This document shows, piece after piece, positions 2,093 to 43,071 of a stretch of 64,000 bases of DNA. Location: contig JACRDG010000115.1 in NCBI GenBank assembly GCA_016218715.1, positions 1-64,000 on the forward strand, read 5' to 3'. The position numbers and the translations under genes are program-made. The notes beneath the pieces were generated by a model. It was given only the letters and a program-made list of their open reading frames with translations. It was not told the DNA's origin and ran no database searches. Position 1 is the first letter of the stretch. Every line of letters starts with the position of its first letter. The stretch comes from Desulfomonile tiedjei. Its GTDB lineage: Bacteria > Desulfobacterota > Desulfomonilia > Desulfomonilales > Desulfomonilaceae.

Positions 2093-3088
2093 ATGAATCT
2101 CCCCGGACGAAACGACCCGTGCCCCTGCGGAAGCGGGTTAAAATTCAAGAAGTGTTGTCTCAAAGAAAAGCCCCTCCCCTCCGATGCTGTCGATGATGCC
2201 GCCGGCCTGCGTGTCCTCGGATTCAAAGCAATGTCCCTCGAAAATTGGGACGAAGCCATCGGGCACTTCAAGGCCTGCCTCGAAACCTCGACGGATCGAC
2301 ACACCATTCTCGAGGCTATAGCCTCCTGTTACGACGGCCTCGAGGACTACCTGCTCGCCGCGGAATATTACGAAAAAGCCATTGCCGAGGCCCCTCCGCA
2401 GCGACGGTTCGACCTCACCTACCGACTGGGTATCGCCCGAGGGTGCGGTGAACGAATCGACAAGGCCGCGGAAGCTTTCCAACAGTGTCTCGACCTGGAA
2501 ACCGACGAGAAGCGCAAAGGGCACGTCGCGGAAATCATCAAGGATCTCGAGGAAATCCAGGAAGGCAAACGGAGCCGGAAATTCTTTTCGGTGCAGGTGC
2601 AACTCCAGCGGGCCTTTTCCGACATGGAAGCTGAGAAATTCGACGCCGCGGCCCAACGACTCGAAACTATTTCTAGAATCGACCCGGATAATCCCGCGAT
2701 CTTATACAACCTCGGGGTTGTCTACACCTTCTTGAAGAGGGAAGATGCCGCAGTCATGCTTTTTCAGAGATGCCTGGACCTGAATCCGTACTACGTGCAG
2801 GCATGGTACAATATGGGCCAGATATTCTTGATACACAAACGAGACTTCTCCTATGCGCTCCAGTGTTTTGACCGAGCCGCGGCCATACGGCCCGATTACG
2901 TAGGCGCTCACCATCAGCGGGGAATCGCATGGGAATTGCTCGGCGATCCCGTCAAGGCGGTGGAATGCTGGAACAAAACTCTTGAACTCGACCCCGGCAA
3001 CACGCTCGCCAGGGAGAACATCCAGCGAGTGTCCGGAGGCGAGTCCGCCAAGGCTTCCGTCACGAGCAAGAAAGGGCTAAAGGAATGA
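2093..3088 (+). CDS. TPR-repeat protein with N-terminal SEC-C zinc motif
   Basis: N-terminus NDPCPCGSGLKFKKCC (SEC-C) followed by several TPR units. Confidence 0.88.
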   Translation: MNLPGRNDPCPCGSGLKFKKCCLKEKPLPSDAVDDAAGLRVLGFKAMSLENWDEAIGHFKACLETSTDRHTILEAIASCYDGLEDYLLAAEYYEKAIAEAPPQRRFDLTYRLGIARGCGERIDKAAEAFQQCLDLETDEKRKGHVAEIIKDLEEIQEGKRSRKFFSVQVQLQRAFSDMEAEKFDAAAQRLETISRIDPDNPAILYNLGVVYTFLKREDAAVMLFQRCLDLNPYYVQAWYNMGQIFLIHKRDFSYALQCFDRAAAIRPDYVGAHHQRGIAWELLGDPVKAVECWNKTLELDPGNTLARENIQRVSGGESAKASVTSKKGLKE

Positions 3089-39931: not shown

Positions 39932-40398
39932 TAGACTTCACGCGGTTGACCGCCTTGTGGTGTCCCGAAAGGCGGTTTGACTTAGATTTTCCCCTTCCCA
40001 TGTGGTTCGCCGGTCTGTGGTTCTATCTGAAGGGCTTCCTCTACCTGTGCTACGTGTGGATGGCCGGCATGGACCCGGCGCCTTACCCCACCGCGGTCAT
40101 TGTCGAGACGGTCTACTTCGGAGTGACGATCGTTCCGTCGTTGTTGCTCGGCCTGGCCATGTGGAACGACAAGAAGCGGTTTGTCGTTCCCGCGCTCGTC
40201 TTTCTCGGCATCGACACGCCGGTCCTGTTCTTCCACGTGCTTCGGCTGGCCGAAGCAGGCTTTCTCGCGTCAGACCTGACCCGGGTAATGGAAATCGGCG
40301 CGCTGATCCTCAATGCCATCGCGTTCGGCTGGCTGATCGGGTACCTCACGGCCTACAAAGCCAAAGCTGTCCGAAACATGAAAACCAACCCCAAATAG
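39928..40398 (+). CDS. Hypothetical membrane protein
   Basis: 156 aa with several hydrophobic helices; overlaps glyA stop (ATGA). Confidence 0.7.
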
Positions 40399-40667
40399 TC
40401 CCCCGGAACGGCAAGACATAGCAGTTCTCGAAAGTAATCACGGACTGCCTTCCGGGTGCCGCTGGCTTGTCCAGCAGTGCGATCCCAATCCCAGAGAACT
40501 ATTGAGAATAACTATAGAACTGCCCTAAAGCCATTTTTCCCTAGGAAGGCGTTGCCCGGTTTAGGCATTTCCGGCCGAAGGCCTGCCCTCTCCCAGAGGG
40601 AGAAAGTCAATACTGGGGCCTGCATTCGTCCCGCTGGAGGCAACAGCGGATTTTTTCAGAATGCCTA

Positions 40668-40696
40668 TTGACAAACGCAATGTATTTTGGTATATT
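40668..40696 (+). promoter_or_regulatory. Predicted sigma70 promoter
   Basis: TTGACA (40668-40673), 17-nt spacer, TATATT (40691-40696), in an AT-rich stretch. Confidence 0.72.
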
Positions 40697-40702
40697 ATAC
40701 TC

Positions 40703-40790
40703 AATTGTTGAAGTAACACTTGACAACGAGAACTTCAACACTCCTTTACCTCCTACAGCGCCGGGTCTGAAATGAACCCGGCTTTTTTTT
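40703..40790 (+). ncRNA. Candidate small structured RNA of about 88 nt
   Basis: Follows the promoter above; 5' hairpin TGTTGAAGT...ACTTCAACA (40706-40714/40732-40740), unpaired C-rich CTCCTTTACCTCCTAC, then terminator hairpin; no ORF. Confidence 0.6.
40760..40790 (+). terminator. Rho-independent terminator
   Basis: GCCGGGT-CTGAAATGA-ACCCGGC perfect 7-bp stem followed by 8 T. Confidence 0.88.
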
Positions 40791-40887
40791 GCTTGAAACA
40801 CCCGTCTGTCGGCTAATTCACTCTTTTCGATTGCGCGTTCGCTGAAAACACTTATGATGTGGTGGGGTTGCCTGAAAGGAGGTGGCA

Positions 40888-40953
40888 ATGAGCCGCTTCG
40901 GGCCCTCAAGTCCTCTTCTATCTCATGAACCAACGAGAGAAGGTCAGCCGTGA
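40888..40953 (+). CDS. 21-aa leader ORF overlapping the ATPase start
   Basis: AAAGGAGGTGGCAATG strong SD; MSRFGPSSPLLSHEPTREGQP*; its TGA overlaps the ATPase GTG (GTGA). Confidence 0.45.
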   Translation: MSRFGPSSPLLSHEPTREGQP

Positions 40954-42179
40954 ACGATAAGCTCATTATCCAAAAACTCGGCCCCATCAAACACCTGGAG
41001 ATCGAGCCCCGACCGCTCACCATTCTTATCGGGGAACAGGCGTCGGGCAAGTCTCTCGCAGCACAGGTGCTCTACTTCTTTAGGGGGTTGAAGACCCATC
41101 TGGCCAAGGTTTACACTGACGAGCTGGCTGCGCATAGGCGTGGTGAGGATTTAGCGGTGTCAATGGCCCTGAGCCGCCTGCGTGGGGTATCTATTGAATA
41201 TTTCGCCAATGGAACCGCTACACTCCAGTACCGTTGCAGAGGGAGCCAGAAAGAACGGCTTGCTAATTGGCAACTTAGGATTGATCCGGTTTCGCTCATG
41301 CCACGGGTTCTCAAGGAGTTGCGAAATCAGATCCGACAATGGTTTTCTCTGTGGGGCGAAGACAAAGATTCTTTAAAAGAGGTGGCCGATGTACGACAGA
41401 TCTTCATCCCGACGGAACGCTCGCTAGTCACACGTTTCGCCGGGAGTCCGCACTTGCTTTACGCCGAATCACACCCCGAGCCCTTGCGGCAGCTTGCCAC
41501 GCTCCTAGAACCGACCCAAATCGCCCGCATTTTCAGGTCCTTTATCGAAGGAGCAGCGGAGGAAGTTCCGGAATCTAAGACAGATCCTTGGACAGCGTTC
41601 GGCTGGTTGACCGACTGCGAGCGGAAAGCCCTTGGAGGAGAGGCAGTGCCGGAATTTTCGGGCCGTGTGCCGCACTGGGAATGGCGACTCGATCAGGCCG
41701 GCGACGGCGAGGCTTTGCCCATGAGCGCCACATCCTCCGGCCAAATGGAGACTTGGCCCTTCTTCGCCATTGCCCGCTGTTACGGAGCTCTATCCAGGAG
41801 AAGCCTCGATTTCTATTTCGAGGAGCCCGAAACCCATCTGCATCCAAGTGCCCAAGTCGAGGTAATGAAGGCGGTTGCTTATCTGATCAACAGGAAAGCC
41901 CACTCCTTTTTCATCACCACCCACTCACCCTATCTACTGTACGTGGTGAACAACATGATTCAGCGCCACGTCTCGTTCAAGGGAAAAATTCCCGAAGGTG
42001 AGGAACGGTGGCTCGATCCGAGCAAGGTGGCGGCCTACCGCTTGCGGCAGACCGCCGAACCCGCGGTGCAGGACATAGTCGATCGAAATGACACCCAGCT
42101 CATCGACGCGGAGGAATTGGAATCCGTGGCGAATGAGTTGGGCGGCGAATTCAACAAATTGCTCTACGGCATGGAGTAG
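40950..42179 (+). CDS. AAA/ABC-type ATPase (AAA15/OLD-like ATPase domain), candidate defence component
   Basis: Walker A GEQASGKS, signature-like SATSSGQMETWPF, Walker B LDFYFEEPETHLHPSAQ, FFITTHSPYLL. Confidence 0.88.
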   Translation: MNDKLIIQKLGPIKHLEIEPRPLTILIGEQASGKSLAAQVLYFFRGLKTHLAKVYTDELAAHRRGEDLAVSMALSRLRGVSIEYFANGTATLQYRCRGSQKERLANWQLRIDPVSLMPRVLKELRNQIRQWFSLWGEDKDSLKEVADVRQIFIPTERSLVTRFAGSPHLLYAESHPEPLRQLATLLEPTQIARIFRSFIEGAAEEVPESKTDPWTAFGWLTDCERKALGGEAVPEFSGRVPHWEWRLDQAGDGEALPMSATSSGQMETWPFFAIARCYGALSRRSLDFYFEEPETHLHPSAQVEVMKAVAYLINRKAHSFFITTHSPYLLYVVNNMIQRHVSFKGKIPEGEERWLDPSKVAAYRLRQTAEPAVQDIVDRNDTQLIDAEELESVANELGGEFNKLLYGME

Positions 42180-42724
42180 TGGCAATGCAACGACTGCGCG
42201 AAGCATTAGTGAAGACTATCCCGGCGGAATGCTTTGTCAACGGCTCCAGCATTTCGGAGAGCGGCCGGTCTTTCAGCATCAAGCTTGCTCGCGATGAACA
42301 AGTATTGGCGGCCAAGCTGGATCATCCTGCCATGAACTGGCCCGAAAGCCAGAAGGTATGCGATGCTGTTTTTCTCTGCTGTCTTCCGGATCGAGATGAG
42401 TTGCTGGTGGCACTGGTGGAACTCAAAGGCACAGACGTCAGAGACGCCAGGAAGCAGATTGAAGCAACGAGTCGGGCTCTTTGCAACCGACAGAAAGCCC
42501 TGAAGCAGGCCCACACACAGCCTGTCAAGGCTGCTGTGCAGTTGTTAGGAAAGATGGGCCATGGAAAAGGGGTGTTGGGCGTTATCGTAAGTGCCGTAGG
42601 CTTGCCCCTCGATTACAAAGAGAGGGCCAAAATCTGGAAGAACTACAAGATAATCTTCTGGACAAAGAGTGGGCAGGCACGCGAGATGAGCTGCCGGGAA
42701 CTGGCCGGTAAGTTTCGCGGCTGA
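42179..42724 (+). CDS. Hypothetical protein with PD-(D/E)xK-like pattern, translationally coupled to the ATPase
   Basis: GTG start overlaps ATPase TAG; CDAVFLCCLPDRDELLVALVELKGTDVRDARKQIEAT. Confidence 0.78.
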   Translation: MAMQRLREALVKTIPAECFVNGSSISESGRSFSIKLARDEQVLAAKLDHPAMNWPESQKVCDAVFLCCLPDRDELLVALVELKGTDVRDARKQIEATSRALCNRQKALKQAHTQPVKAAVQLLGKMGHGKGVLGVIVSAVGLPLDYKERAKIWKNYKIIFWTKSGQAREMSCRELAGKFRG

Positions 42725-42784
42725 GACATCTCGCCACCGATTCAACACGCTTTGGCACTTCCTCGTGGCAATTGAAAGAGGTCC

Positions 42785-42869
42785 CGTAGGATGTGGCGAG
42801 CGCAGCGAACCGCATCTGCCCAGACGGAACCTCGAACGATGCGGTTCCCGTTGGTCGCCGCATCCTACG
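42785..42869. repeat. Imperfect 32-bp inverted repeat (REP/MITE-like)
   Basis: CGTAGGATGTGGCGAGCGCAGCGAACCGCATC (42785-42816) ... GATGCGGTTCCCGTTGGTCGCCGCATCCTACG (42838-42869). Confidence 0.75.
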
Positions 42870-43071
42870 CGTGCTTCCTGAAAAGCTGCTGCGTCCATGG
42901 AGAGACGAGATCTCGAAATGAGGAGCACTGCTGGGCAAGCCAGCAGTGGCATCCAGCGAAGGTGTGGCGGCACACGCTCTTCAGACATAGCCAGAACGCA
43001 GAACGGCCGGCCCGTGCTTCGAGCCGACCCGCTGCAATGGATGAGCGTACGGGGGAAAGTGCGGTCAGCCG

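Follow-up and report, generated by a model that had tools for sequence, protein, structure and literature searches.

An OLD-ABC ATPase and PD-(D/E)xK nuclease gene pair, probably an anti-phage cassette, beside an independent small RNA in Desulfomonile tiedjei

Introduction

Does a promoter, a structured RNA, a short leader ORF and two overlapping protein genes, found together among housekeeping genes of Desulfomonile tiedjei, constitute one RNA-coupled defence module, or do they merely share a neighbourhood? The question was raised by a preliminary description of positions 40668–42724 of the window, that is, the whole stretch of 64,000 nucleotides analysed here (contig JACRDG010000115.1, assembly GCA_016218715.1). 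When the DNA was re-read, the promoter, the RNA, the leader, the ATPase and the small protein were all located where they had been placed. All of them are real, but they are not one module. In particular, a two-gene cassette (40950–42724, + strand) encodes an ABC ATPase of the OLD/AAA_15 type together with a small PD-(D/E)xK nuclease-like protein, and the RNA is an independent sRNA that adjoins this pair by chance. The neighbours of the pair are housekeeping genes, with no defence island.

The ATPase and its nuclease-like partner

To begin with, the first gene of the cassette (40950..42179, + strand, GTG start) encodes an ABC ATPase of 409 aa matching the Pfam families AAA_15 (1.8e-17) and AAA_21 (1.2e-12). 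The sequence contains all the motifs of an OLD-type ABC ATPase, namely a Walker A motif (GEQASGKS, G28-S35), the residues P154/R157, a signature (SSGQMETW, with S262-Q265), a Walker B motif (FEEPETHLHP, with E291/E292) and an H-loop (TTHSP, with T324-H325-S326). The glycine, lysine and serine of Walker A, P154/R157, EEPE and THS were invariant across the 15 ATPase rows aligned. The structural model of this protein (pLDDT 83) had PtuA of Septu as its best fold match (E = 1e-11), and the best PADLOC score was that of AriA of PARIS; both are ATPases related to the one described here. PADLOC also returned PD-T4-4_A (3.3e-15), PDC-M56A, likewise scoring above PDC-M29A, and PDC-M29A itself (1.6e-12), the last of which was matched by all 15 ATPase rows (best 1.1e-43).

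The second gene (42179..42724, + strand) starts with a GTG whose first base is also the final base of the ATPase stop codon, and encodes a PD-(D/E)xK nuclease-like protein of 181 aa with D62, E81-x-K83 and Q93. The ExK motif had previously been read as catalytic, and this reading was supported. In the 13 aligned rows, D62, E81 and K83 were invariant and Q93/T97 nearly invariant. Moreover, the model (pLDDT 87, pTM 0.86) presented the D62-strand, the ExK-strand and the Q-helix in the order of PD-(D/E)xK enzymes. Judged from these alignments, the conservation of both proteins is the signature expected of two active enzymes under selection. Searches of Pfam, PADLOC, NCBIfam and PHROGs gave no family match for the window nuclease, the fold search against the PDB gave nothing significant (the best weak matches including Mus81-Eme1, PaqCI and FokI at E 0.04–0.5, plus spurious ones to Ras), and its profile found only chance matches among PDB sequences. 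Eight of the 13 nuclease rows matched PDC-M29B (best 1.8e-20), the window protein being too divergent to do so, and one distant homologue matched PD-T4-4_B at 0.004. Thus, domains, motifs and the conserved gene pair agree with the ATPase plus small nuclease first proposed.

Comparison with known systems

The closest described counterpart is WonAB of the Vibrio cholerae WASA-1 prophage, an OLD-ABC ATPase with a PD-(D/E)xK nuclease, for which both genes are needed for protection and the ATPase residues K34/E300/H333 and K71 of WonB are essential (PMC12137116). Activation of WonAB halts translation and the chromosome is not destroyed, while WonB is not toxic without WonA and simple sequestration has been ruled out (PMC12137116). 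The window pair has the same two-gene architecture, shares the catalytic K34 with WonA and presents the same 33 residues between the Walker B glutamate and the H-loop histidine (E300/H333 in WonA, E292/H325 in the window), the catalytic lysine of the nuclease being K71 in WonB and, as predicted, K83 in the window. In contrast to the prophage-borne WonAB, it is chromosomal, lies among housekeeping genes and carries a leader ORF. On comparison with the published description of WonA and WonB, the pair is assigned to WonAB's kind, as a new member, rather than to WonAB itself.

WonAB has been grouped in a larger family with PD-T4-4, an AAA_15 ATPase plus PD-(D/E)xK nuclease of E. coli (PMC10952713), and with the 'OLD-ABC ATPase + Novel REase' class (PMC12137116) of the Krishnan et al. 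survey (PMC12137116, PMC12409358). This class, which has Anaerovibrio reference sequences and a two-part architecture like that of the window pair, is reported to occur in 0.96% of bacterial genomes and to include every WonAB homologue (PMC12137116). Strict membership of a named system was not obtained. For the PADLOC candidate PDC-M29, both components matched distant homologues of the window proteins, while of the window proteins themselves only the ATPase matched. Likewise, the ATPase matched PD-T4-4_A and the nuclease had no match to PD-T4-4_B. A search for PD-T4-4_B in the window's own genome gave no match either, but since the control genomes gave none, this negative is uninformative. Neither PDC-M29 nor PDC-M56 was found under these names in the literature searched. 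Consequently, assignment to a characterised system holds for the kind and not for strict membership; of the "possible undescribed defence" first proposed, probable phage defence is retained and "undescribed" is withdrawn, since its kind, with WonAB and PD-T4-4 among the members, is known (PMC12137116, PMC10952713).

Two further systems were considered and set aside on their effectors. The PtuB effector of Septu is an HNH protein, and the window partner is of the D-ExK type with no HNH match. The AriB effector of PARIS is a Toprim protein, and the window partner had no Toprim or AriB match.

Distribution and genomic context of the gene pair

Relatives of both proteins were found paired, with the gene order preserved, in Desulfomonile-type MAGs and other Desulfobacterota as well as in Chloroflexota, Bacteroidota and Bacillota. 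The two genes were adjacent or overlapping in nearly all of the homologous loci (L013, L014, L016, L017 and L019–L025), forming a conserved two-gene operon; the L015 locus was cut by a contig end, and the partner in L018 had no clear ExK. The pair in L013 was ~50% (ATPase) and ~42% (nuclease) identical to that of the window. Overall, the pair was sparse, with matches in 9 of 295 Flavobacterium-class genomes and in 5 of 395 genomes of the window's phylum. No viral copies were found in IMG/VR, nor was the pair found in the plasmids searched.

The contexts of these loci were varied, with housekeeping operons frequent among them. The L025 pair was inside a type I RM locus and the L024 pair beside a methyltransferase gene, contexts that speak for a defence role. 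In L014 (6001–7739), the pair was inserted within an operon and flanked by two ABC transporter permease genes of the peptide type; it began 5 bases past the first and ran into the start region of the second. In L016, the pair came directly after sdhAB. Furthermore, the sdhA-sdhB junction of Bacteroidota held the pair in L019 (5992–7611), L020 (6001–7714), L021 (5992–7666), L022 (6001–7522), L046, L047 and L049, and four of the nine ATPase matches among the Flavobacterium-class genomes sampled were at this junction. Among 30 sdhB loci, the junction was shorter than 100 bases in most, contained the pair in two and other inserts in three, these being four-helix-bundle proteins or an MNT-HEPN-like toxin-antitoxin pair (named by eye), which suggests that the junction is a general cargo site. 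The SdhA proteins of L021 and L022 were 90% identical and their ATPases only 39%, which suggests that a single site has seen replacement or rapid change.

Several additional observations were made in the course of these searches. Loci with other sdhA-sdhB inserts were L069 (about 1030–1500), L075 (about 950–1500) and L078 (about 2240–3000). The sdh genes of L019, labelled Limnohabitans, were 85–88% identical to those of Flavobacterium L020, and the bin or label of L019 is therefore doubtful. Pairs of an ATPase and an ExK protein also appeared in two unverified faecal records labelled 'Bacteriophage sp.' (L110, 2995–4751; L111, 2–1577), one of which had a transposase-like ORF near the pair. Finally, a truncated nuclease homologue was present in genome G276 (L003, 1471–1770). 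The 10 kb around it (L012) gave no ATPase match, and it is a probable remnant of a lost cassette.

The adjoining small RNA

Upstream of the pair, a sigma70-type promoter (40668..40696, + strand; TTGACA-17-TATATT, extended TG, 11/12 matches) was the sole promoter-like site found by a scan of 40380–43000. This promoter serves the sRNA and not the gene pair, and its TTGACA box also appeared in the aligned RNA loci of other genomes. The sRNA (about 40703–40790, + strand) comprises a 5′ stem-loop, a single-stranded, anti-Shine-Dalgarno-like segment UUACCUCCUA (40746–40755) and an intrinsic terminator (40760–40790), with the 3′ end GCCGGGT...ACCCGGC-TTTTTTTT. Its predicted fold had −25.5 kcal/mol (z = −4.2), and none of 200 shuffled sequences was as good. 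Within it, the stretch UUACCUCCU was near-invariant, single-stranded and complementary to Shine-Dalgarno sequences. The 5′ stem apparently had another register in one genus (GCGAAGC/GCUUCGU instead of GUUGAAGU/ACUUCAAC), and covariation is therefore not claimed. Other mRNAs are the probable targets of the sRNA, which would base-pair with their Shine-Dalgarno sequences. The alpha-r14, or cuckoo, sRNAs similarly present a conserved anti-Shine-Dalgarno motif in unpaired RNA, there as CCUCCUCCC (PMC10746234); they carry it in repeated loops and belong to a different phylum, whereas the window sRNA has one UUACCUCCU motif. Rfam gave no match at gathering score, the only hit being Burkholderia ncS16 (E = 0.77, 17.5 bits vs a cut-off of 48).

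The distribution of this RNA was found to differ from that of the gene pair. A DNA search detected it in 6 of 18 genomes of the family, including the window's own, and a covariance model raised its presence to most of the 18. In 13 other family genomes (14 of 18 with the window), it was downstream of a gene for a 156-aa membrane protein, without the ATPase and nuclease genes beside it; glyA was visible at 12 of these 13 loci, the contig of G404 ending first, and the fabD-fabG-fabF-glyA order extended upstream at three of them, in longer stretches. Conversely, the model found nothing above noise over 27 other sources with pair homologues (next best 18.6 bits; window 96.7). Weak matches elsewhere in the phylum (E 0.0001–0.01) had no glyA synteny and were probably generic terminators. 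Since the RNA is syntenic without the pair and the pair loci are without the RNA, the two are neighbours only here among the loci seen. The downstream flank of the window pair was not syntenic in the relatives, and the boundaries of its insertion were not readable.

These results bear directly on the reading of the locus as an RNA-coupled defence or toxin-antitoxin module, in which the RNA would serve the pair as antitoxin, decoy or sensor. That the RNA adjoins the pair and folds strongly speaks for it, as does a predicted duplex with the leader Shine-Dalgarno sequence of −20.8 kcal/mol, marginally the best among 42 window start regions. However, such pairing is generic for an anti-Shine-Dalgarno segment, the next window gene reaching −20.3 kcal/mol; the RNA keeps company with the 156-aa gene and glyA where no pair adjoins it; G404 has the RNA and the pair on different contigs; and the RNA is not conserved with the protein genes, as it would be in a module of the retron or RNA-antitoxin type. 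This reading is thus extremely unlikely, and the RNA can no longer be counted as a module component, the pair homologues having consistently lacked it.

The leader ORF

Between the RNA and the pair, a 21-codon leader ORF (40888..40953, + strand; ATG 40888, TGA 40951–40953) follows the canonical Shine-Dalgarno sequence AAAGGAGGT (AAAGGAGGU) at 40875–40883, and its stop codon overlaps the ATPase GTG at 40950 (GTGA). Because of this Shine-Dalgarno sequence and the overlap, the leader is probably translated and translationally coupled to the ATPase, and most likely merely couples translation to it. The co-occurrence of RNA, leader and two genes in unrelated genomes, proposed earlier as a check, was not observed: no leader equivalent was seen in the upstream regions of the pair homologues, the leader appearing in this genome only. 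A possible promoter of the pair's own in the terminator-to-leader gap was a weak by-eye match (TTGCGC-16-TATGAT, 40831–40858) that the promoter scan did not return. As the leader duplex was the best of 42, though barely, a weak, lineage-specific regulatory link may exist. In it, the sRNA would pair with the leader Shine-Dalgarno sequence and, through the leader-ATPase coupling, silence the pair until the sRNA falls; if true, which is highly doubtful, this would be an RNA-gated abortive-infection switch confined to this one lineage.

Proposed function and its alternatives

Taken on its own, the pair quite probably acts against phages and belongs to the OLD-ABC ATPase plus PD-(D/E)xK nuclease kind represented by WonAB, PD-T4-4 and PDC-M29. 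Systems of this kind are known to block phages through shutdown of the host cell. The likely role of the window pair would be abortive infection, with the nuclease licensed by the ATPase. The ATPase, a dimer in the published models of WonA, would sense an infection cue; ATP binding or hydrolysis would then license the small nuclease, which would cut nucleic acid of either the host or the phage. The target is probably an RNA that belongs to the translation apparatus, as has been suggested for WonB, and growth would stop ahead of phage assembly.

The overlapping genes, the small nuclease as effector and the stand-alone cassette would also suit a type II-like toxin-antitoxin pair, with the ATPase merely sequestering the nuclease, but this is unlikely in view of the invariant catalytic residues of the ATPase and of WonAB, where sequestration was excluded and WonB was harmless by itself (PMC12137116). 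A host function in DNA repair or regulation, tied to metabolism, would draw on the sdh/dpp operon placement, in particular the recurrent sdhA-sdhB site in Bacteroidota, the position after sdhB in L016 and that between permease genes in L014. Against it stand the sparseness of the pair in both groups of genomes sampled, the unrelated RM and methyltransferase contexts, the occupation of the same sdh junction by unrelated toxin-antitoxin-like inserts and the divergence of the L021 and L022 ATPases beside SdhA proteins that are 90% identical, so that this alternative is very unlikely.

With the anti-phage cassette as the preferred reading, a recently recognised sensor-nuclease kind of defence is now extended to Desulfobacterota. 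Such cassettes can sit in or beside housekeeping operons, away from any defence island, and would then escape screens that rely on such islands. Furthermore, a new, conserved, anti-Shine-Dalgarno-like sRNA is now separated from the module into which the first reading had merged it.
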